Part shown: piece by piece, positions 95 through 19,318 of the stretch
How the letters are laid out: each line of letters starts with the position of its first letter
Numbering within the stretch: the first letter of the stretch is position 1
NCBI GenBank assembly: GCA_021778935.1
Contig: JAJYBQ010000014.1
Coordinates: forward strand, 1-20,761
Length of the DNA stretch: 20,761 nucleotides
DNA from: Pseudomonadota bacterium
Lineage (GTDB): Bacteria; Pseudomonadota; Gammaproteobacteria; Burkholderiales; Burkholderiaceae
Direction: 5' to 3'
Position numbers and translations under genes: made by a program
Notes under the pieces: generated by a model
Database searches by the model: none
The model's input: the letters and a program-made list of their open reading frames with translations, nothing else
Told to the model about the DNA's origin: nothing

Positions 95-892
95 ATGAAG
101 ACTTTGGTCTTGGCCAATCAGAAGGGTGGGGTCGGCAAGAGCGCGGTGGGCGTGCAGCTGGCGTACTACCTGGCGCACGTGGGGAGGAAGGTTCTGTTCC
201 TGGACCTCGACCATCAGCGCAATTCGTCGACGCCCATCGTCAAGAGCAAGAAGGCAGTGGTGGCGGGATTCAGCGCAACCGAGCTGCTGCTTGGCAGATC
301 CGGCGCGCTGCCCGAGGGTGACTTCATCCTCGTGCCTGGCGACGACCAGCTGAGCAGCCTCGAGCGACAGCCCGACAAACACAACGTGATGGTGAACTCG
401 CTCAAGGGCTTGCTTGACACTGCTCGTTCCCGGTTCGACATCTGCATCCTGGACACCAACCCAAACCCCGATATTCGCTACGCGGCGGCGATGGCCACCA
501 GCGACTTCGTCCTCTCGCCGATCCAGCTCAACCAGGAGGCGATCGACGGGATTGGGTCGCTTCTTACACATCCGCGCTATGGCTTCCAGAAGATCAAGGC
601 GGTGTTGAACCGCAATCTTGAATTGATCGGCATCCTGCCGAACATGGTGGAGCCCACGCCCTTCCAGAAGGGGAACTTCAGCCAGCTGGTGGCGGCGTAC
701 TCGAAGCTGCTGATCCCGGTCGACGCCGCACAGGGTCGGTTCGCGTTCATACCGAAACGGTCGGTCATTGCCGAGGCGCAGGCCGAGGGTCTGTTTATCG
801 CAGAGATCCGCAAAACTGCGGCGAAGGACGCTTGGCGGGACATCAAGCCTTCCTTCGACGTGATCGCAAAACGCATGTCCATTGAGGTGTAA
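95..892 (+). CDS. parA: ParA/IncC-type partition ATPase
   Basis: This 265-residue protein is a ParA-family Walker ATPase that should drive plasmid partition together with the KorB-like protein encoded next. It carries the deviant Walker A motif KGGVGKSA at residues 10-17, an A' segment LFLDLDHQRN near residues 34-43 and a Walker B segment ICILDTNP near residue 117. It lacks an N-terminal DNA-binding extension, so it resembles short IncC rather than long P1-type ParA. The ATG at 95 follows AGGAG (81-85) by nine bases. The gene ends two bases before korB, and the pair matches the incC-korB order of IncP plasmids. Family confidence is high; the IncC label rests on the KorB neighbour. Confidence 0.93.
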   Translation: MKTLVLANQKGGVGKSAVGVQLAYYLAHVGRKVLFLDLDHQRNSSTPIVKSKKAVVAGFSATELLLGRSGALPEGDFILVPGDDQLSSLERQPDKHNVMVNSLKGLLDTARSRFDICILDTNPNPDIRYAAAMATSDFVLSPIQLNQEAIDGIGSLLTHPRYGFQKIKAVLNRNLELIGILPNMVEPTPFQKGNFSQLVAAYSKLLIPVDAAQGRFAFIPKRSVIAEAQAEGLFIAEIRKTAAKDAWRDIKPSFDVIAKRMSIEV

Positions 893-894
893 GC

Positions 895-1920
895 ATGGCA
901 CTCGACCTTTCCGCTCTCGACGACGCTACGTTCAGTGACCAGACCGCCAGTGCCGCCTCGCCGCGCGCGATGCGCGCGCCACTGGAGCGCTTTGAGGAGG
1001 ATCCGGAGAACCCTCGGTTCGAGTTCGACGACGATCCGGATTTCCCATCATTCGTTGAGGACATCCGGGTGCGGGGAATCCTGCAGCCTCTTATCGTCCG
1101 CGAGGTCGACGGGATGCTGCGCATCCGCTTCGGTGCTCGGCGCCTGCGTGCGGCCAGGCAGCTTGGCCTCGTCGATGTTCCCTATGTGATCACCGAGGAC
1201 GAGCGGCAGTTCGACGACTACGCCCAGGTTTCGGAGAACCAGCAGCGGAAGAACCTGCAGCCACTCGAGTTGGCCACGTTCATCTCCAAGAAGATCTCCG
1301 CCGGCGAGAAGAAAAAGGACGTCGCCGCCAAGCTGCAGATCGATGCAAGCGCGGTGACTCATTTGCTGTCTCTGGTGGATGCGCCGGACTTCCTCTTGAA
1401 CCTCTATCACTCGCGCAAGTGCCGTGCGGCGCATTACCTCTACGAGCTTCGCAAGCTTCACGGGCAGGAGCCCGCGCTCGTGGAGCGATATTGCGAGGAG
1501 GCGGCGGAAGTCGATCGGCGACTGCTGGCCACCATTGCTTCGGCACTTAATCCCCAGGCGACGGCATCCCCGTCCGACTTTGGTGTCGCCAGCGAGGGTT
1601 CCACCGCAAGCAGCACGCGCGCTTCGGACGGCGGCGACGCGGCGGCGGGTGCCGAGCCCGCCGGGCCGGCGGTGCAGCAAGTGCCGCCCCACAACCCTGA
1701 CATCGAGCCTGAGCCCAACGGCCGGCCCGTCGATCCCAGCCGGATCAAGAAGCCGTTACTTCTTGGGAAGTACCGCAAGCGCGACGTCATGATCGACCTG
1801 CAGAAGCGCCCCACGGCCGTCGGCCTGGTCGTCATTCGCTACGAGGACGGGTCGGGCGAGGATGAGGTCGTCATCGGCGATGTCAAGCTCACGCAACTGA
1901 CCGACGCCGCGGCCGCTTGA
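895..1920 (+). CDS. korB: KorB-type ParB partition protein and transcriptional repressor
   Basis: This 341-residue protein has a ParB N-terminal domain (about residues 28-125, with FGARRLRAAR at 79-88 and the ENQQRKNLQPLE segment near 115-126). A helix-turn-helix region follows around residues 137-160, then a Pro/Ala/Gly-rich linker (about 220-280). The C-terminal domain (about 284-335, starting DPSRIKKPLL) matches the KorB SH3-like dimerisation domain. In IncP plasmids KorB binds operators to repress replication and transfer genes and also acts in partition with IncC. The start is two bases after the parA stop with a GAGGTG upstream. I found no perfect IncP KorB operator (TTTAGCSGCTAAA), so its target sequence here has probably diverged. 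Confidence 0.92.
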   Translation: MALDLSALDDATFSDQTASAASPRAMRAPLERFEEDPENPRFEFDDDPDFPSFVEDIRVRGILQPLIVREVDGMLRIRFGARRLRAARQLGLVDVPYVITEDERQFDDYAQVSENQQRKNLQPLELATFISKKISAGEKKKDVAAKLQIDASAVTHLLSLVDAPDFLLNLYHSRKCRAAHYLYELRKLHGQEPALVERYCEEAAEVDRRLLATIASALNPQATASPSDFGVASEGSTASSTRASDGGDAAAGAEPAGPAVQQVPPHNPDIEPEPNGRPVDPSRIKKPLLLGKYRKRDVMIDLQKRPTAVGLVVIRYEDGSGEDEVVIGDVKLTQLTDAAAA

Positions 1921-4777: not shown

Positions 4778-5130
4778 TCCGCGTCGGTCAAGGCCGGACG
4801 CCCTCCCCTTCCCTATCGAGCTTCGCTCTGCCGACCGCGGTCGGCACCGTGGCTTCGCTGTCCAGTGGCATTTCACTGCCCGGCGCCATCGTGCGCCCTG
4901 CGCGATTCGTCGACCGGGTAGCCGGCCAGGCGGCCGCAATGTTCGCCCGGCCTTCTCCCCTTCAAGGGCTTTCGCGGCATAAACGGTGCCCGCCTACGGC
5001 CTGCCTCCCATTTATTCCACGTCCCTTGATCGCCGCTTCGCTCCTGGCGCCCGCCAGCGCCGGGCAGTGAAATGCGGCGCCCGCATCGGGTGTCCCGGCC
5101 TCGCTGCTCCATTGTTCGCATGGAGCCATC
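4778..5130. other. Structured non-coding block upstream of the methyltransferase
   Basis: No convincing gene lies here. It holds a perfect 16-base palindrome, GCCGACCGCGGTCGGC, at 4830-4845 and the long inverted repeat listed separately (4868-5075). The palindrome may act as a terminator stem for kfrA and the membrane gene, although no T run follows. A frame running through from 4555 has atypical composition and is a shadow. Confidence 0.6.
4868..5075. repeat. 19-bp perfect inverted repeat spanning 208 bp
   Basis: GCATTTCACTGCCCGGCGC at 4868-4886 is the exact reverse complement of 5057-5075. The arms are 170 bases apart, and matching stops at both ends of each arm. The right arm ends 55 bases before the methyltransferase start. 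It could be a remnant of a small mobile element, or a fold formed in single-stranded DNA or RNA; I see no target duplication flanking it. Confidence 0.72.
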
Positions 5131-5778
5131 ATGGACAGTCGTTTCATCCTCGGTGATTGCCTCGCCGTTCTTCCCACCCTGGCAGCTGGTAGCGTGGACC
5201 TGGTGCTGACCGATCCGCCGTACCTGGTGAACTACCAGGACCGCAGCGGGCGGTCGATCGCCAATGACGATCGCGCCGGCGACTGGCTGGCGCCCGCCTT
5301 CGCGGAAGCGTTCCGCGTTCTCAAGCGAGATGCGTTCTGCATCAGCTTCTACGGCTGGAATCGCGTGGACCAGTTCGTCGCCGCATGGAAGTCCGCGGGG
5401 TTCCGGGTGGTCGGCCATATCGTCTTCGCCAAGCGATACAGCTCCAAGGCCACGTTTCTGTCCTACCGGCATGAGTCGGCCTACCTGCTCGCCAAGGGAC
5501 GACCGGAGAAGCCGGCGCAGCCGGTGCCCGACGTTTTGGACTGGAAATATTCGGGGAACACGCTGCACCCGACGCAAAAGCCCGTCGGGTCGCTGGTGCC
5601 GCTGATCGAGAGCTTTTCAAGGCCGGGGGGCCTGGTGCTAGATCCATTTGCTGGGTCGGGCTCGACCTGCGCCGCGGCACAGCAGCTCGGCCGGCGGTAT
5701 ATCGGGATCGAACTCGACCCGGCATTCCATGCCGTGGCGTCGCGACGGCTAGCTGCGCCAGTGGTGGCCGCGGCCTGA
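5131..5778 (+). CDS. Orphan DNA methyltransferase, beta-type order (likely N6-adenine)
   Basis: This 215-residue protein is a site-specific DNA amino-methyltransferase. The catalytic motif DPPY is at residues 28-31, HPTQKP at 146-151, and the AdoMet-binding motif DPFAGSGST at 171-179. Having the catalytic motif before the AdoMet motif gives beta-type order, and DPPY favours N6-adenine. The segment between (about 50-140) is short and would carry target recognition. GGAG at 5122-5125 sits five bases before the ATG. No restriction nuclease is nearby, so it is an orphan enzyme; on conjugative elements such enzymes can protect incoming DNA from host restriction or tune regulation. Its target sequence cannot be read from the gene. 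Confidence 0.9.
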   Translation: MDSRFILGDCLAVLPTLAAGSVDLVLTDPPYLVNYQDRSGRSIANDDRAGDWLAPAFAEAFRVLKRDAFCISFYGWNRVDQFVAAWKSAGFRVVGHIVFAKRYSSKATFLSYRHESAYLLAKGRPEKPAQPVPDVLDWKYSGNTLHPTQKPVGSLVPLIESFSRPGGLVLDPFAGSGSTCAAAQQLGRRYIGIELDPAFHAVASRRLAAPVVAAA

Positions 5779-5810: not shown

Positions 5811-6349
5811 ATGGGGAGCGCGGTTTCGCAACCAGCACGGGGGGCAACACCACCGTGCTACGCCGGCCACGGCACGTGCACGCGTGTGCCTTACAGGCTG
5901 CGGCTCCCACCCTCAGCCAGGTGCGCGCCGTCACGCGCCCTGCCCGGCCGGATGGCTGCGCCATTGTCACCGGCCGGCCATGTCACGCGCCGGCGCGCGA
6001 ACATCCCACCCGCCGCAGCAAAAGGCCCGCCGACGTTGAGGCTGTGTCGTCGGGTTCGGTAACGCTGTCGGATTTTAACGTCGATGGTCCCGGCCCCGAG
6101 CGCCCCGGCCTGCGGCCGGCCTGGCTGGCGCGCTACGCGCCGAGCCCCTGCAGGTCTCGGCCCTTCGGGCTTTCATCCTTGGCGCAAACACCTGTCCGCG
6201 GGCCGTGGGGTTGCGTCGGTTGTCTACCGCCCACGGACACAAGCCCTGTCGGCGTCGCCCGGCAAAGCCGCGCGACGTTGGCCGGTCGGCCCTGCGGGCC
6301 CGTCCGGGTTGCCGGATCCGTGGTTCGCGCCACCCCTGCGCAGGTTCCA
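5811..6349. other. Hairpin-rich non-coding block
   Basis: I find no supportable gene. The frames across it have no ribosome site and the proline/arginine-rich composition of shadow frames. It contains several short GC-rich hairpins, for example CCGTGGG (6203-6209) with CCCACGG (6230-6236). Together with the next element it forms a run of over 700 bases without coding capacity between the methyltransferase and the 122-aa gene. Confidence 0.6.
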
Positions 6350-6483
6350 CCTTTCGGAGCCGGGGCGACTTTTCAGGGTGCCAAGCGGGACACGAATCGC
6401 GCCAGGCCCTGCCGGGCCTGTCACGCCTCCTGCCCTTAAACCCGCGCCCTGAAAAGCTCGACCTGTGACCCGGCTCCGAAAGG
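6350..6483. repeat. 134-bp nested inverted repeat upstream of the leading-region operon
   Basis: Three nested stems can form. The outer stem pairs CCTTTCGGAGCCGGG (6350-6364) with 6469-6483 perfectly over 15 bases. The middle stem pairs 6370-6381 with 6444-6455 (12 pairs, one G-T). The apical stem pairs CAGGCCC (6403-6409) with GGGCCTG (6414-6420). The structure ends 30 bases before the start codon at 6514. It could be a single-stranded DNA promoter, a structured leader or a small mobile-element relic. Confidence 0.72.
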
Positions 6484-6513
6484 CAGAACCCAACCACGTA
6501 TAGGAGGATGACC

Positions 6514-6882
6514 ATGCGCGAACTCACTTCCCCGGCAACCAACTACCCCCTTCCGGGGGACCCTCACCAAAAGGCAGCGGGGGCAATCACCCCTGAACGC
6601 ATCCACGAGGCCATGCAGAAGCACGGCACGATCTTCTTCGACCATGCCCTCAACCCAGTCCAGCCCGAGGAAGGGCAATGGTTCTGCGAGTACGAAATTT
6701 TCCTCGGCTTCGGCGGCGAGGAGCTTGTCCGGGAAGGGGCGATCGTCGAATACCTGGGCGTGTCGCTCACCTACGTGCTCGACGGCGACCGCTTTGTCGA
6801 GCGGCCGTCACACCGCGTCCAGACAGAGTACTCCGACACTGACCGCGAACCCGTAGGTGATGCCCTAATCCGGCAGGCATGA
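6514..6882 (+). CDS. Hypothetical acidic protein (122 aa) upstream of the ParB-like gene
   Basis: No family is recognised. The protein is soluble and acidic with no membrane segment; it has a segment HEAMQKHGTIFFDHALNP and an aromatic and acidic stretch around residues 45-60. The ATG at 6514 is preferred: a perfect AGGAGG (6502-6507) is six bases before it, whereas the in-frame ATG at 6508 directly abuts the AGGAGG. It precedes the large ParB-like gene by 71 bases with a terminator-like hairpin between. In the proposed oriT orientation it enters the recipient early, so an establishment or anti-defence role is possible but unproven. Confidence 0.78.
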   Translation: MRELTSPATNYPLPGDPHQKAAGAITPERIHEAMQKHGTIFFDHALNPVQPEEGQWFCEYEIFLGFGGEELVREGAIVEYLGVSLTYVLDGDRFVERPSHRVQTEYSDTDREPVGDALIRQA

Positions 6883-6953: not shown

Positions 6954-8894
6954 ATGACCACCACCCAAGCCACCGCTGAAGCCCTGCAGTACCTCCCGCT
7001 GCACGCGCTGCGCATCGACGAACTCAACGCCCGCAAGGCCGAGCCGACCGACAGCGAGATCGACGAACTGGCCAGCCTGATCGCCTCGCAGGGACTGCTC
7101 CAGAACCTCACCGTGATCGCCTACGACCAGTCCCGGCGCGAGAAAGGCAAGGGCAAGCGCAAGGCCCAGGACTGCACCCACGGCGTGATCGCCGGCGGCC
7201 GTCGCCTGCGCGCGCTGCAGCGACTGGCACAGCGCGGCGTGCTGCCCGCCGATGAACAGATTCTGTGCAACGTAGTGCCGGTCGAGCAGGCCAGGGCGAT
7301 CAGCGTGGCGGAGAACTCGGGCCGCGCCGATATGAGCGTGGTCGACACCATTGTCGCCTTCGCCGACATGGTGAAGGACGGGGCCAGCGTCGAGGAAATC
7401 GCCGTGGCCTTCGGCATCGCGCCGATCACGGTCCGGCGTCGCTTGAAGCTGGCCAACGTGTCGCCGCGTCTGTTCGACCTGTTCCGCGCGGGCGAGATCG
7501 AACTCGATCAACTCCAGGCGCTCGCCCTTACGGACGACCACGCCCGGCAGGAAGCTGCGTGGGATGGCACGCCCGCGCATTCCCGGTATGCACACGTTCT
7601 GCACCGCCTCATTGTCGGCGACGGGGTGCCCGCCAGACTGGTGCGCTTTGTCGGCCTGGATGCCTACGAGCAGGCGGGTGGCGTGGTGCTGCGCGACCTG
7701 TTCTCCGGCGAAGGGGAGAGCGGCGTGGTGCAGGACGGCGCCCTGGTGCATTCCCTGGCCGTTGCTAAGATGGAACTGACCGCCGAGCAACTTCGCGCCG
7801 AGGGCCTGTCGTGGGTAGAGGTGCGGCCGATATTCGATTATTCGGACCGGCAGGATTTCATGCGCGCGCCCACCGCGAAGCGGGCCGCGACCGAGGACGA
7901 GGCGAAGGCGCTGGCCAACATGGAGACGCAGCAGGACGCGCTCGGCCAGCAGATCGAAGCGCTGTACGAGAGCGACGAGGACGGCGAGGACGCCGAGATC
8001 ACGGCGAAGATTGACGTCCTGGAGCAGCAGCAGAACGAACTCGCGGAACAGCGGGACGCCATCGAGGACGCGCTGCGCGTGACCGTCCCGGAGGCTGCGG
8101 CGCTGGCCGGGGCGGTGATCTACGTGACTGACAGCGGGCAGGTCGGCGTCGAGCGCCACCTGATTCGCAAGGCGGACCAGAAGGCGGCGAAGCAGGCCGT
8201 GGCGACGTTCGCCGCCGAGCAAGGGCAGGGGAGTGCGGCTGATGCCGAGGAAGGCAGCGGCCTGTCCGAAGCGCTGACGCGGCAGTTGACGGCACATCGC
8301 ACCCGCGCCCTGCAGGCGGCGATGATCGACCAACACCAGATCGCCCTGGCTGCGCTCGCGCATCCGATGATCCTGGACATGCTCTACGACCGGGGCGACA
8401 CGTGGAACGCTCCGAGGTCGGCCCTGGCGGTGAACGCCAAGGGTTGCGAGGGCCAACTGCGGGCCGTCGCCAGCGACTTGGGCGAGAGCCGCGCGGAGCA
8501 GGCTGTGGCCGCCGCGATCGAGGCCGCCGTGGGCGACCTCCCGAAGAACGCGGCCGACCTGCTTCCCTGGCTGCTCCAGCAGCCGCAGGACACCCTGGTC
8601 AAGCTGCTGGCTCTGTGCGCCTCGCTGACCATCGACGCCATCAGCGGCAACGGCGGCGCACACGCGGCCGACCCTCTGGCCAAGGCGGTCGGTCTGGACA
8701 TGGCCGACTGGTGGCAAGCCACCGGTCCCGGCTACCTCTCCCGGGTGCCGAAGGCGCTGATCGTCGAGGCGGTGACGGATGCCGGCATGGCCAAGGACGC
8801 CCAGGCCCTCGCCAAACTCAAGAAGGGCGAGGCCGTGGAGCGAGCCGCCGCGTTGCTGGACGGCAAGCGCTGGCTGCCTAGCGTACTGCGCTAA
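6954..8894 (+). CDS. Large ParB/Spo0J-family protein (second ParB of the element)
   Basis: This 646-residue protein begins with a ParB/sulfiredoxin-fold domain (about residues 12-120, with AGGRRLRAL at 80-88 in place of the usual GERR). A helix-turn-helix follows at about 145-167 (SVEEIAVAFGIAPITVRRRL). The rest is a long, mostly helical region with an acidic coiled segment near 310-365. ParB-fold domains can bind CTP and some have nuclease activity; which applies here is not visible. AAGGA lies just upstream of the ATG at 6954. Since parA-korB already covers partition and no ParA accompanies this gene, it probably has another role. Proteins of this size and type are common near oriT on conjugative elements; F-plasmid and IncN leading regions carry ParB-fold proteins, so an establishment function is plausible. 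Confidence 0.88.
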   Translation: MTTTQATAEALQYLPLHALRIDELNARKAEPTDSEIDELASLIASQGLLQNLTVIAYDQSRREKGKGKRKAQDCTHGVIAGGRRLRALQRLAQRGVLPADEQILCNVVPVEQARAISVAENSGRADMSVVDTIVAFADMVKDGASVEEIAVAFGIAPITVRRRLKLANVSPRLFDLFRAGEIELDQLQALALTDDHARQEAAWDGTPAHSRYAHVLHRLIVGDGVPARLVRFVGLDAYEQAGGVVLRDLFSGEGESGVVQDGALVHSLAVAKMELTAEQLRAEGLSWVEVRPIFDYSDRQDFMRAPTAKRAATEDEAKALANMETQQDALGQQIEALYESDEDGEDAEITAKIDVLEQQQNELAEQRDAIEDALRVTVPEAAALAGAVIYVTDSGQVGVERHLIRKADQKAAKQAVATFAAEQGQGSAADAEEGSGLSEALTRQLTAHRTRALQAAMIDQHQIALAALAHPMILDMLYDRGDTWNAPRSALAVNAKGCEGQLRAVASDLGESRAEQAVAAAIEAAVGDLPKNAADLLPWLLQQPQDTLVKLLALCASLTIDAISGNGGAHAADPLAKAVGLDMADWWQATGPGYLSRVPKALIVEAVTDAGMAKDAQALAKLKKGEAVERAAALLDGKRWLPSVLR

Positions 8895-8905
8895 GCGCGC
8901 GAGGG

Positions 8906-8955
8906 GAGGGCGTTGCCCTCTCGCCCACGCCGGCCGGCCCGTTTCACGGGCCGGC
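8906..8955 (+). terminator. Tandem hairpins after the ParB-like gene
   Basis: Two hairpins follow the stop codon in succession: GAGGGC/GCCCTC at 8906-8920 with a GTT loop, and GCCGGCCCG/CGGGCCGGC at 8933-8955 with a TTTCA loop. Neither has a T run, but the double arrangement right after the gene suggests a transcription end or bidirectional insulation from the oriT region. Confidence 0.55.
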
Positions 8956-9173
8956 GCTCTCCAGGGCTTCGCCCCGGCCGCGAGGCCGCCCCACATTTGC
9001 GCGCTACTCGCGGGAGTGGCCGGAGGCAGACGTACCTTATGTGCGCCTCTGCAATCAACGCGCAGGGCGCGTCGGCCGGCTTCGCCGGCGGCCTCTACAG
9101 ACTTGGATGCTGAGTCGCAGGCCCGCCGGGCGGGCCGTCTTAGCGCTAGTCGCGTTCCCCACCGGGCACGGCG

Positions 9174-9189
9174 TGGATTGTGCAATCCA
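9174..9189. promoter_or_regulatory. Operator-like palindrome A, copy 2
   Basis: TGGATTGTGCAATCCA, seven-base arms around TG, is identical to the core of 3392-3409. It lies 11 bases before the 9200-9250 hairpin and about 170 bases from the nick candidate, so the same DNA-binding protein may act at kfrA/sprT and at oriT/mobC. Confidence 0.62.
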
Positions 9190-9199
9190 TACCGTGGCC

Positions 9200-9250
9200 G
9201 GGGACAACCCGTCCTCTGCAACGCGTGGGCTTGCCGGACGGGTTGTCCCC
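9200..9250. repeat. Long perfect hairpin near oriT
   Basis: GGGGACAACCCGTCC (9200-9214) is the exact reverse complement of 9236-9250, with a 21-base loop whose ends GCAA (9218-9221) and TTGC (9231-9234) can extend the fold. It lies 108 bases to the left of the nick candidate, on the side that would enter the recipient first. Possible roles are a single-strand initiation or promoter structure, a transcription barrier, or an oriT accessory fold. Confidence 0.7.
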
Positions 9251-9318
9251 CGGTTCCCCCGTGGATAACGCGATGTCGTGAGCTGATCGAGCGCTAGCCG
9301 CATAACTCGTTTCGTTCG

Positions 9319-9333
9319 CTTGAAAATTTCAAG
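9319..9333. promoter_or_regulatory. Operator-like palindrome B, copy 2
   Basis: CTTGAAAATTTCAAG is identical to 3500-3514 and lies 24 bases from the nick core at 9358. Palindrome A lies to its left, as at the kfrA locus, so both sites occur in the same order in the two regions. Confidence 0.62.
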
Positions 9334-9357
9334 AAACGGCGGAGTGGTGTTGCTATT

Positions 9358-9401
9358 GCAGGATAGGCTGTCGCCGGTACTTGCAATGCCTTCGGCATTG
9401 C
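9358..9401 (-). other. oriT: Putative origin of transfer: IncP-like nick core with adjacent hairpin
   Basis: The minus strand reads CCTATCCTGC at 9367-9358, identical over ten bases to the RK2 nick region (CCTATCCTG|C; general IncP/MOBP core YATCCTG|Y). Cleavage would fall between the bases opposite 9359 and 9358. On the 5' side of the nicked strand a perfect hairpin, GCAATGCC-TTC-GGCATTGC (9383-9401, plus-strand reading), stands 15 bases away, as an accessory-protein inverted repeat does in RK2. The site lies 74 bases before mobC and the relaxase gene, the usual position for MOBP oriT. Confidence 0.74.
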
Positions 9402-9440
9402 TCTAGGCTGCGCGTAGCGCGCTCAGCTGTGTGTGACTGC

Positions 9441-10001
9441 ATGAACACCCCTCGTAAACGACCAACCCAAATCACGACTGACCTACAGGGCTTGAAGGAG
9501 CCCTGGATGGCCTGGTGCGCGGCGAACGGCGTCACCCCCAGTGAAGCAATGCGGCAAATCGTCTCCAAGCTGACCATGCCTAGTGCGACGGCTGCGGCCA
9601 GCGCGCCTAGCGTTCCCACCGCGAGCGAAGTGCGGCGGCCGCCGGGGCCGGGGAGGGCACGAAGGGAGATTCGCCTCACGGAAGATGAAGACTCCCTGGT
9701 CAGGCAACACGCGGCATCCACGGGCTACTCGGTCCAGCGTTGGATCGTCGCTCTGATTCGCGGTCAGCTCCGCAAGTCTCCCGACTTCGGGCAGCGAGAG
9801 CTCGAGGCGCTCGGTGAGTCGAACTACCAATTGCTGTCGATCGGCCGGAACCTCAATCAGATCGCCCGTGCCCTCAATGCGAATCCTGGGAGTAGGGCGG
9901 CCTACAACGAGGAGATCATCCACCAACTGCGCCAGTACATCGAGCGCCACACAAAGCTGGCTGCGCAGCTCATCGAGGCAAGCACACAACGCTGGCTCTG
10001 A
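9441..10001 (+). CDS. mobC: MobC-like relaxosome accessory protein
   Basis: This 186-residue protein fits the MobC/TraJ-type accessory family that binds oriT and helps the relaxase open the strands. The N-terminal part (about residues 1-45, with GVTPSEAMRQIVSKL) looks like a small DNA-binding fold. A variable Ala/Pro linker and a second region (REIRLTEDEDSLVRQHAASTG, near 75-95) follow. The C-terminal part has the typical MobC segment NYQLLSIGRNLNQIARALN near residue 132. The ATG at 9441 lacks a clear ribosome site; upstream in-frame TTG starts fall inside the oriT hairpin and are unlikely. The relaxase gene starts one base after its stop. Confidence 0.82.
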   Translation: MNTPRKRPTQITTDLQGLKEPWMAWCAANGVTPSEAMRQIVSKLTMPSATAAASAPSVPTASEVRRPPGPGRARREIRLTEDEDSLVRQHAASTGYSVQRWIVALIRGQLRKSPDFGQRELEALGESNYQLLSIGRNLNQIARALNANPGSRAAYNEEIIHQLRQYIERHTKLAAQLIEASTQRWL

Positions 10002-10002
10002 A

Positions 10003-11025
10003 ATGCCCAAGGCTCCGAAAACATACGTCGATGGCCTCCTGGTGAACTGGGCGGAACGCTGGGATTGGTCGCCCCAGCACCGCGTCGTTCCGAACAAGAA
10101 GACGCCGGCCGGCTTATGGCTGCGGCCAGCGGAATACACTCGTCCTTCGGTAACGCCGCTAGACGCACGCCGCAACCTCGCGGGGTTTGCGCGCAAGGTC
10201 CCGCAGGTGATGGTGAAGATCAGCGGGGGAGGGAAGGGGATGCGGCGGATTGTGGCGCATCTCGACTACATCACGCGAAACGGGCAGCTCCGCCTCGAGG
10301 ACGAACGTGGGGACGTGGCGAACGGGAGGGCAGACGTTCACGATCTCGCGGCGGTATGGGCGCAGGGGCGATTTCCGATTCCCGACGAAAGCACTCGGCG
10401 TGAGTCCTTTCACATCGTTCTTTCAATGCCGGAAGGGACCGAGGCGAACGGCGTCCTTAAGGCTGCACGTCGGTTTGCGGCTGCGCAGTTCGGGGAAAAC
10501 TTCCAATACGCGATGGCGTTGCACACGTTCGCCACCGACCCGGATCCGAAGCCGTCCCGGCACCCGCATGTGCACCTGGTGGTGAAGGCGCAAGGACGCG
10601 ACGGGATCAGGCTCAACCCACGGAAGGCGGACCTGCAAGACTGGCGTGAGGGCTTTGCCGCCGCTTTGCGCGAACACGGCATTGAGGCAATAGCGACGCG
10701 TCGACGGGGTCGCCTGCAACGCGAGAAAGGCGAGAGCCAGGCCGTTCGCCACCTCAAGGGGAGGGGAGTGACACCCAAACGGCTGGCGACCGAGGCCACT
10801 CAGCCGAAGGCGGTCGCGCGAGCGCGTGACAATGCATTGCGCGCGAAGAAGGATTTCGGCGCAATTGCGCGGGCGCTGGCTGCCTCCGAGGACCGTGCCG
10901 ATCGCGCGCTTGCACTCGATCTGGTGAAGCGTCTGAAGGAACTGAACGAACCGACGAGGACCGCGGATCGCCCGACGACACAGGACCGTGCGCGAGGGGA
11001 GGGCGGTAAGGCTCGGTCCGACTAA
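10003..11025 (+). CDS. VirD2-like MOBP relaxase
   Basis: This 340-residue protein should nick oriT and stay attached to the 5' end of the transferred strand. The core begins near residue 68 (VMVKISGGGKGM). The likely catalytic tyrosine is Y89 in HLDYITRNG, and the metal-binding histidine motif HPHVH is at residues 187-191, preceded by H174. A basic C-terminal part (about 225-340) follows. An extension of about 65 residues precedes the core. The ATG at 10003 is the first start after mobC and only one base separates the genes, so they are coupled. The protein is short and lacks the LPD7 and related C-terminal domains of many plasmid relaxases; these occur on a separate protein at 17657-19318. 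Its stop overlaps the end of fic by three bases, convergently. Confidence 0.9.
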   Translation: MPKAPKTYVDGLLVNWAERWDWSPQHRVVPNKKTPAGLWLRPAEYTRPSVTPLDARRNLAGFARKVPQVMVKISGGGKGMRRIVAHLDYITRNGQLRLEDERGDVANGRADVHDLAAVWAQGRFPIPDESTRRESFHIVLSMPEGTEANGVLKAARRFAAAQFGENFQYAMALHTFATDPDPKPSRHPHVHLVVKAQGRDGIRLNPRKADLQDWREGFAAALREHGIEAIATRRRGRLQREKGESQAVRHLKGRGVTPKRLATEATQPKAVARARDNALRAKKDFGAIARALAASEDRADRALALDLVKRLKELNEPTRTADRPTTQDRARGEGGKARSD

Positions 11026-17656: not shown

Positions 17657-19318
17657 TCAGCTCCTTCCGCCTCGCGACCGCTCGGCCGTGCGGGTCGTTT
17701 CACGCACGATCTCCGGCCGGAATTCCGACCGCATCGCGTGGCGGTCGTAGACACGTACCAACGGCTCGACGTCCGCCTTCCGCGACGCGTCCCCGACCTT
17801 TTCCCGCACTTCGTCACGCAGCGAGTCCAAACGACGCAGATCCCACGCATTGCGGTTCGTGGTGATCTCCTTCACGCCGACGATCTCCCCACGCTCGTTG
17901 CGCTCCTTGGTCTTGACCGTCACCGGCTTTCGCCCTTGGTAAGCGACAGCGATCTCGTCGCCGACCGTTGCCCCGCCCTCTTCCATCGCACGCGGCAAAT
18001 CGACGCCCCAGACAGTCTTCTCCCCGCCTTCGGTCTGCAGCTTGATGAAGTAGCTGCCCTCGTTGTCCACCTTGTGCTCGTAGGGCGCGGCGCCGTGCTC
18101 GAGGATCTTGCCGACGTAGACGCGGCTCGTCTGAAAACGCTCCGCCGCCAAGTCTGTGGCCAAGTTGATCGCCTTCTCGGAATCCCCGCGGGCCCGCATG
18201 TAGACCTGCAGCGCGGCGAGCGCGGCCTGCTGCCGATCGGAAAGGCCTCCTTGATGCTCATCGACCACAGCAGTGCGTTCAGGCGGCGCCTGCCGATCGC
18301 GGGCAGGGCTTGCCGCATTCGGTTCCGCTCGCGTTGCCAAGGCGGCTTCGCGCCGGCGCTCGTCGCCACGTTCGACGGCATTCGCGCCCCTATCCCCCGC
18401 GCGCTTGGTCTCCTCGAGGCGCTCCGCCAGCCGCGCCAGGTCGACGTCGCGCGGCTCGAAGCCACGCACCTCGAGGCCGCGCAGGCGGGCCTCGAACCAG
18501 GCCTCCCGCTGGAACTCCGGACTGCCCTTCACGCGGATCGACTTCCACCCCTTCGCTACCGCGAGTTGCACCATGGCGTGCGCGACGTCTGCATCGTTGT
18601 GCTGCGTCACCAGCCGCTTGCCACGATCCTCGAACGCGAGCGTTTGCGCGTCGTCGCGAAAGTGAAAGCGGTTGTCGACCTGCAGGAATCGCCTCCGGAG
18701 CGACTCGGGAACGGCAGAGCCATCCTCCCGACGCGCGTCATGCTCTTGATGCTCGCTGCCCTTTGGCGGCGCCGCCGGCACCTCGCCGATCGCTCGCGCG
18801 TTCTCCGCGACTTCGGTCGGCACACCGCTCTCCCCGAGGCCCATTTCGTTGCGCGCCATTTCCCGGTCGACCTGGCGACGCCGCCGAAGGCGCGCGGAGG
18901 TGATCTCGTCCAGCTCCCGTTCCGGGCCCTGCTCAACCTCGTTCTCCTGGCCGACCTCCGCGGCCTGCTGAGCCTCGGCTGCGGCCAGCGGCGCGCGCTG
19001 CACTTCTGCACGCACCGCGCGTTCCGCCGCCTCGTATCGCTCGGCCCCCTCGGGGTGCCGGAACTGATACAGGTACGTGTCGTGCGGCTCTGCAGTGAAC
19101 GCACCGTCCAGCAGCAATTGGCTGTCCGTGATGGCGGCATAAGCTCCTGGGCCGTGGACCTTCCCGAAATCGCTGTGCCGCAGTTCCGCGAGCGACTGCA
19201 TAGCACGGTCCGCATCGTCGAACTCGTGGGCGCTGACCGTTACCCCGTCTCGCCCTACCAGCGCAACGCGGAAGCGCGGCTCCTGGCCTGTTCCGTCATT
19301 CTCATGAACTGATTCCAT
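17657..19318 (-). CDS. LPD7 and KfrB-domain protein of the transfer operon
   Basis: The 553-residue protein has an N-terminal alpha/beta region (about 1-105), a charged, Ala/Glu-rich linker, an LPD7 domain (about 205-300, including FHFRDDAQTLAFEDRG and KGWKSIRVKGSPEF), a second linker, and a KfrB domain (about 400-495, including GSYFIKLQTEGGEKTVWGVD). LPD7 is usually found fused to relaxases or other large plasmid polypeptides, and KfrB domains occur on conjugation proteins. Here both are on a protein without any nuclease or helicase motif, which suggests a relaxase partner or DNA-transfer accessory. GGGAGG lies eight bases before the ATG, overlapping the upstream stop. It is coupled to topB. 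Confidence 0.85.
   Translation of the reverse strand: MESVHENDGTGQEPRFRVALVGRDGVTVSAHEFDDADRAMQSLAELRHSDFGKVHGPGAYAAITDSQLLLDGAFTAEPHDTYLYQFRHPEGAERYEAAERAVRAEVQRAPLAAAEAQQAAEVGQENEVEQGPERELDEITSARLRRRRQVDREMARNEMGLGESGVPTEVAENARAIGEVPAAPPKGSEHQEHDARREDGSAVPESLRRRFLQVDNRFHFRDDAQTLAFEDRGKRLVTQHNDADVAHAMVQLAVAKGWKSIRVKGSPEFQREAWFEARLRGLEVRGFEPRDVDLARLAERLEETKRAGDRGANAVERGDERRREAALATRAEPNAASPARDRQAPPERTAVVDEHQGGLSDRQQAALAALQVYMRARGDSEKAINLATDLAAERFQTSRVYVGKILEHGAAPYEHKVDNEGSYFIKLQTEGGEKTVWGVDLPRAMEEGGATVGDEIAVAYQGRKPVTVKTKERNERGEIVGVKEITTNRNAWDLRRLDSLRDEVREKVGDASRKADVEPLVRVYDRHAMRSEFRPEIVRETTRTAERSRGGRS

Follow-up and report, generated by a model that had tools for sequence, protein, structure and literature searches.

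The window analysed here (the whole stretch of 20,761 nt, positions 1-20,761 of the forward strand of contig JAJYBQ010000014.1, assembly GCA_021778935.1) begins with ParA (IncC-like) and KorB partition genes (95-1920, plus strand) that are related to those of pIPO2 and pSB102. Further along the same strand lie genes for a DNA methyltransferase (5131-5778; PF01555), for a protein of 124 aa with no assigned family (6508-6882) and for a ParB-like protein of 646 aa (6954-8894), all three on the side proposed below to enter a recipient first, the ParB-like gene being the nearest to the transfer site. An earlier note on this DNA, made from its letters and open reading frames, had given the second of these as a 122-aa gene; the open reading frame encodes 124 aa, and the figure of 122 corresponds to a second ATG two codons in. 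The next two genes, also on the plus strand, encode a MobC/NikA-like relaxosome auxiliary protein of 186 aa (9441-10001), which matches PF21983 with 31.5 bits against a cut-off of 27 (scored on the longer open reading frame 9381-10001), and a MOBP-type (VirD2/MobP1-like) relaxase of 340 aa (10003-11025), which matches PF03432 with an E-value of 1.1e-10 and 42.3 bits, above the cut-off of 24.6 (scored on the longer open reading frame from 9814). Since the relaxase reached 88.3 bits with the NCBIfam MobP1 model, below its curated cut-off of 200, it is filed here as a MOBP relative and not as MobP1. Its residues Y89, H174, H189 and H191 are invariant in an alignment of 34 rows (the window and 33 database proteins), and we take them to be the catalytic tyrosine and three-histidine motif known from VirD2. 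A profile search with the relaxase among solved structures returned none at E 0.1. Beyond the relaxase gene, the opposite strand carries primase, topoisomerase, LPD7 and VirD4-like genes; the LPD7 protein (17657-19318, minus strand) has a further match, to the C-terminal portion of the MobP1 relaxase model, and IncU plasmids likewise have a separate LPD7 gene.

The putative oriT and its relatives

The ten-base sequence CCTATCCTGC occurs once in the window, on the minus strand at 9367-9358, and the ATG of mobC at 9441 is 74 bases from position 9367. The chance expectation was 0.02 copies per dinucleotide shuffle, and two of 100 shuffles contained the sequence. Read 5' to 3' on the minus strand, the region consists of a palindrome, GCAATGCC-GAA-GGCATTGC (9383-9401; arms at 9383-9390 and 9394-9401, paired at 8/8 positions around a loop of three, 15 bases from the core), followed by AAGTACC, by a mini-hairpin GGC(GACA)GCC (9366-9375) and, directly after it, by TATCCTG|C. 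The nic core, CCTATCCTG|C at 9358-9367, carries the predicted nick between 9359 and 9358, the exact bond being presumably the one that corresponds to that cut in RK2. The core, the 8-base-arm hairpin to its 5' side and the mobC-relaxase pair were therefore all found as the earlier note had described them. When 61 bases were folded as single-stranded DNA, both hairpins formed together with a third one of three pairs, located beyond the nick (z -3.67). No consensus sigma-70 promoter or terminator was found in 8890-9500, and KorB-type operators (TTAGCGCTA, one mismatch allowed) were as frequent near the site as expected (2 found vs 2.0).

Relatives of the relaxase were sought in genome and viral contigs. 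A single-sequence search of both confirmed none, nor did an alignment search of the viral contigs; the alignment search of genome contigs gave 271 encoded relatives, the best 80 of which were used. With three plasmids added there were 83 loci, each examined with about 4 kb of flank, and with the window 84 relaxase rows, whose tree has several long branches and an unsure placement of the window. A matrix built from 24 relatives aligned by their cores, without the window, ranked the site first of 41,432 positions (44.4 vs 2.6 for the next), and a covariance model of 22 relatives, again without the window and run unfiltered, found the site and nothing else in the window (43.6 bits; E 3.1e-11, E-values of this model being rough). 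As the relatives in both were chosen by the presence of the core, the core columns are invariant by construction and cannot count as evidence; the matrix score with the ten core bases masked is free of this selection effect. A chance occurrence of the ten bases, with the oriT at another place, for which one could cite that YATCCTGY alone is no commoner in the window than expected (3 matches vs 1.6, not significant) and that 25 of the 84 rows have no such site in the examined DNA, is so improbable that we set it aside, as the masked matrix, which rules it out, still ranks the site first of 41,432 (25.5 vs 8.5) and its position and strand are kept in relatives.

This conservation of position can be counted. 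A stretch of at least 900 bases before the relaxase was available in 77 of the 83 loci. In 43 of these the antiparallel strand has the core at -900 to -550 from the relaxase and in none does the other strand have it there, compared with an average of 0.33 and a maximum of 2 in 200 letter shuffles, although the 43 are not independent, many being close kin. The core was also located before mobC in pIPO2T, in pSB102 and in an Asticcacaulis plasmid. Over the whole tree, GCC-TATCCTGC was present in 35 rows (window included) and GCCA-TATCCTGC in 24; these 24 site-bearing rows belong to a single clade of 27 Nitrospira-type rows, to which the GCCA form is confined and of which three have no site. Of the 25 rows in which none was found, two (L017 and L073) have too little upstream DNA, ten form one Alcaligenaceae clade and the rest are scattered. 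The Alcaligenaceae loci (L029, L039, L040, L043-L047, L049 and L050) do have mobC in the examined DNA, and their relaxases possibly use another oriT.

In loci such as L006-L008, L016, L020, L031, L041, L042, L052, L054 and L070 the site has another position, 1.1-5.0 kb past the start of the relaxase gene, and two of these loci have it on the other strand. Eight (L007, L008, L016, L020, L031, L041, L042 and L052) carry an oriT-like site on the minus strand 1.1-4.2 kb past the relaxase start, so that the relaxase gene would enter early. The 46-position oriT profile fits sites far from relaxase genes, and it also fits a tiny plasmid of Xanthomonas citri, pXAG2.EB08 (1804 bp), whose two annotated genes are one for replication and one hypothetical, and in which positions 246-274 scored 35.7; this plasmid is probably mobilised in trans.

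Taken together, the matrix, the covariance model and the relatives support both the identity of the site as an oriT and the nicked strand that had been proposed for it, and the site is very probably the place where a mobile element is cut for the transfer of one strand to another bacterium. We hold with high confidence that 9352-9401 represents the oriT of a conjugative element related to PromA and IncU, functioning in the manner outlined next. With the MobC-like protein as its helper, the relaxase would bind the minus strand at the point where the mini-hairpin presents TATCCTG|C; it would cut between 9359 and 9358, stay on the 5' end at 9358 and lead the minus strand, as the T-strand, through a type IV channel towards lower coordinates, so that the genes for the ParB-like protein, the 124-aa protein and the methyltransferase would be the first to enter. 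The site, its conservation, the gene homologies and the orientation are read from the sequence, and it is from these that nicking, protein binding and promoter activity are predicted. With this, the transfer origin and the first-entering genes of the element are now placed. It could also be that the site is an oriT by descent only, in an element that has become defective or relies on a different relaxase acting in trans, since the window has just the last part of the VirD4-like gene and the element is known here from the window alone. We consider this improbable, because mobC and the relaxase gene are unbroken open reading frames, the relaxase keeps the residues that are invariant in the 34-row alignment (of which it is itself one row), and the primase, topoisomerase, LPD7 and VirD4-like genes follow.

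The oriT is of an already known kind. The plasmids of the PromA group (pIPO2 and pSB102) share with the window the GCCTATCCTGCAATAG core on the antiparallel strand before mobC-relaxase and nearby IncC/KorB partition genes, and their relaxases are about 44% identical to that of the window. They differ from it in that about 7.4 kb, with SprT-like, KfrA-like, 83-aa, methyltransferase, 124-aa and ParB-like genes, separates korB from the oriT in the window; the PromA layout, with the oriT at the border of the partition operon, was not found, as korB ends at 1920 and the oriT is near 9360. Neither the flanking DNA 8895-9480 in plasmids nor the oriT flanks in plasmids and phages had a blastn match at E 1e-5. 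Since the core and flanks match those of relatives, on the antiparallel strand before mobC, the site would work like a PromA oriT, and the backbone is not filed as PromA. The bench-tested relative, the IncU plasmid RA3, also has a mobC-relaxase operon beside its oriT and a SprT-like gene on the left, and pFBAOT6, which is annotated near-identically to RA3, has the LPD7, VirD4-like and topoisomerase genes on the opposite strand as the window does; RA3 differs in its core, AATCCTGC, and in the sequence of its MobC operator. As regards the earlier description of the site as IncP-like, the ten-base nic core is indeed shared with IncP RK2/RP4, but these have a traJ/traI gene set, and beyond the core the site is of the PromA type (pIPO2, pSB102): with the family matrix, the RK2-type locus scored at best -3.1 anywhere, compared with 43.3 for the window, which rules out IncP membership beyond the ten bases. 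In IncI1 R64 the nic-like site is likewise on the minus strand before nikA-nikB, and the genes to its left read towards it, whereas its core is CATCCTG|T and a long palindrome abuts it.

The two hairpins beside the nick

The mini-hairpin abutting the core is, with the detail of the first-entering region, one of two features that go beyond the earlier note. In the loci and the window TATCCTGC occurred 74 times; 14 occurrences were left out because neither GCC nor ACC, followed or not by an A, precedes them, and the remaining 60 sites correspond to 57 distinct ones. A stem of at least three pairs ending at the core was present in 56 of these 57, against 19.7 (sd 3.1) in 200 shuffles that kept the 3' arm, and one of at least four pairs in 20, against 5.0. 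Two sites (L013 on the plus strand and L071 at +175) were dropped as coincidental. Of the 55 left, 54 have GGC/GCC as their outer pairs and one has GGT/ACC; a fourth pair is found in 17 (CG 9, TA 5, AT 2, GC 1), one site having GGTC/GACC. By our own count, 14 of the 19 tetraloops of three-pair stems without the inserted A are GNNA, and GNNA loops are unusually stable in DNA. The mini-hairpin therefore recurs in nearly all sites found through the core. The distal palindrome, for its part, varies in sequence, length and distance from the core: its arms reach at least 7 bases in 11 of the 55 sites (0.55 in shuffles) and are shorter than 5 in 34, many of them Nitrospira-type.

Experimental background comes from RA3 and the PromA plasmids. 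According to PMC4175270, the nick sites of PromA plasmids, as located in silico, coincide in part with the -35 predicted for the mobC promoter, mobilisation of RA3 is abolished by two-base changes at its putative nick site, and a 45-base RA3 oriT without the MobC operator transfers well, even though loss of MobC costs 1000-fold. The RA3 operator adjoins the core region, at -34 to -19 from the nick. By analogy with these systems (PMC4175270), it is probably the MobC-like protein, rather than the relaxase, that recognises the palindrome at 9383-9401, as its operator at the promoter of mobC-relaxase. With somewhat less than even confidence, we go further and suggest that across the MOBP relaxases of the PromA and Nitrospira types the nick is presented by a tiny GGC-GNNA-GCC hairpin distinct from the palindrome bound by MobC, and that the changes in its stem and the one-base insertion of the Nitrospira type may reflect co-evolution of relaxase and nic.

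The converse assignment, with the 8-base-arm palindrome as the relaxase's hairpin and the GGC/GCC repeat as conserved primary sequence only, is less likely, although several observations speak for it: the long hairpin is a much stronger fold, and the three outer pairs of the short one are almost invariant and so hold little information on pairing. Moreover, in RA3 (PMC4175270) a mutation beside the core lowers mobilisation 100-fold though another 4-base stem can form, which means that sequence may matter more than pairing; because of that alternative stem, the mutation was set aside as proof of the mini-hairpin. Against this assignment stand the variability of the distal palindrome, with its short arms in most of the sites, the maintenance of the proximal stem while its inner pairs change, and the function of the RA3 minimal oriT mentioned above. 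In the assignment preferred here the mini-hairpin would serve the relaxase and the palindrome MobC; so short a hairpin is a directly testable feature.

The first-entering region and its hairpins

The earlier note had the DNA to the left of the site entering the recipient first, and this direction gains support from the layout of R64 and from homologues. R64 has a methylase, a ParB-like gene and a conserved hairpin motif on the same side and in the same reading direction as the window. The methyltransferase is 63% identical to the methylase on the first-entering side of R64 over 207 columns, and the ParB-like protein is 30% identical, over 652 aligned columns, to the R64 protein encoded at 57207-59165; relatives of the window's ParB-like protein occur in at least 5000 plasmid records, the best at 54.6% among the matches listed. 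The 124-aa gene had no Pfam match and no tblastn match in plasmids. On its first-entering side R64 is annotated with ssb, psiB and ardA, and families of this type had no match among the scanned open reading frames of the window. The companion claim, that transfer genes enter last, fits the window and is no general rule, given the relatives with a site 1.1-5.0 kb past the relaxase start; the position of the relaxase gene does not by itself fix the direction of transfer.

According to PMC7736820, M.EcoGIX and M.BceJIII are plasmid methyltransferases of single strands that act on entering DNA, and the protection given by M.EcoGIX depends on the orientation of oriT; we infer that the R64 methylase belongs to this family. 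Likewise, PMC11541004 describes the 300 commonest leading-region families, in which every gene for anti-defence, methyltransferase or SSB functions is oriented so that it can be read from the strand that enters, an orientation that the leading genes of the window have too. The DNA predicted to enter first carries genes of a kind that helps incoming DNA to survive. The loci L001 and L003 have SprT, KfrA and the 83-aa gene before the oriT. Within the roughly 4 kb flanks, none of the relaxase loci had the ParB-like gene, and for the methyltransferase there was a single weak match, past the relaxase of L048; this block therefore looks like an addition.

All three genes read towards the oriT, so the strand that enters is their template. 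On this strand a long imperfect hairpin (4868-5075, minus), with a conserved core at 4962-5029, stands 55 bases from the methyltransferase start, and a second long one (6343-6490, minus), without that core, stands 17 bases before the 124-aa gene; overlapping palindromes excluded, they are the window's longest inverted repeats between genes. In a fold scan of the minus strand (206 overlapping windows of 200 bases, 25 shuffles each) the six lowest z values all start left of the nick, the most structured stretch being 6301-6500 (z -8.3). The same scan of R64, as a control for single-strand promoters, was unspecific, with many low scores, also away from the leading genes: the nikB end is among the lowest, and the stretch before ssb went no lower than -4.4.

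With the first hairpin as query, blastn matched 98 plasmid records, at 125 places altogether and in no case over 80% of its length, and its core is found in plasmids of Burkholderia, Xanthomonas and Bordetella, in plasmids typed IncP and in R64. Of the 15 copies compared, that of the window among them, every one has CGTGGAATA, and every one has TATGCCGCGAAAG save for one mismatch in one copy. RNAalifold gave only a weak consensus for the 15 (-2.2), and the case for a conserved core is therefore built on the sequence and on folds of single copies; Rfam gave no match at gathering scores. A Frpo (ssi) element has this arrangement, an imperfect hairpin on the strand that enters, ahead of a first-entering gene oriented to match, and the hairpin before the methyltransferase may therefore work as a single-strand promoter, one of a widespread and directly testable kind.

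A role of the hairpins that precede the first-entering genes as RNA leaders, terminators or replication signals seems less likely, though far from negligible. As RNA, these stretches would fold too, and visual inspection gave no clear -35/-10. Two plasmids typed IncP have a copy with a replication gene on one side and a DNA-binding-protein gene on the other, and copies in L056 and L064 lie beyond the relaxase. In R64 the motif was found only before the methylase (L084), inside an annotated hypothetical gene, and the ssb and ardA stretches (L089 and L091) had no copy. What favours single-strand promoters is that the next annotated gene has the matching orientation in 9/9 records examined of the 98 (methyltransferase 4, DNA-binding protein 2, ParB-like 1, DUF932 with ssb close behind 1, hypothetical 1), that the motif starts at nearly the same distance before the methyltransferase in the window (150 bases) and before the methylase in R64 (146), and that, according to PMC7736820, an Frpo (ssi) is located upstream of ecoGIXM. 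The second hairpin matched 31 bases in one plasmid record. The stretch 9130-9357, between the nick and the ParB-like gene, is itself highly structured (z -6.1), would enter first and contains a perfect 15-base stem at 9200-9250.
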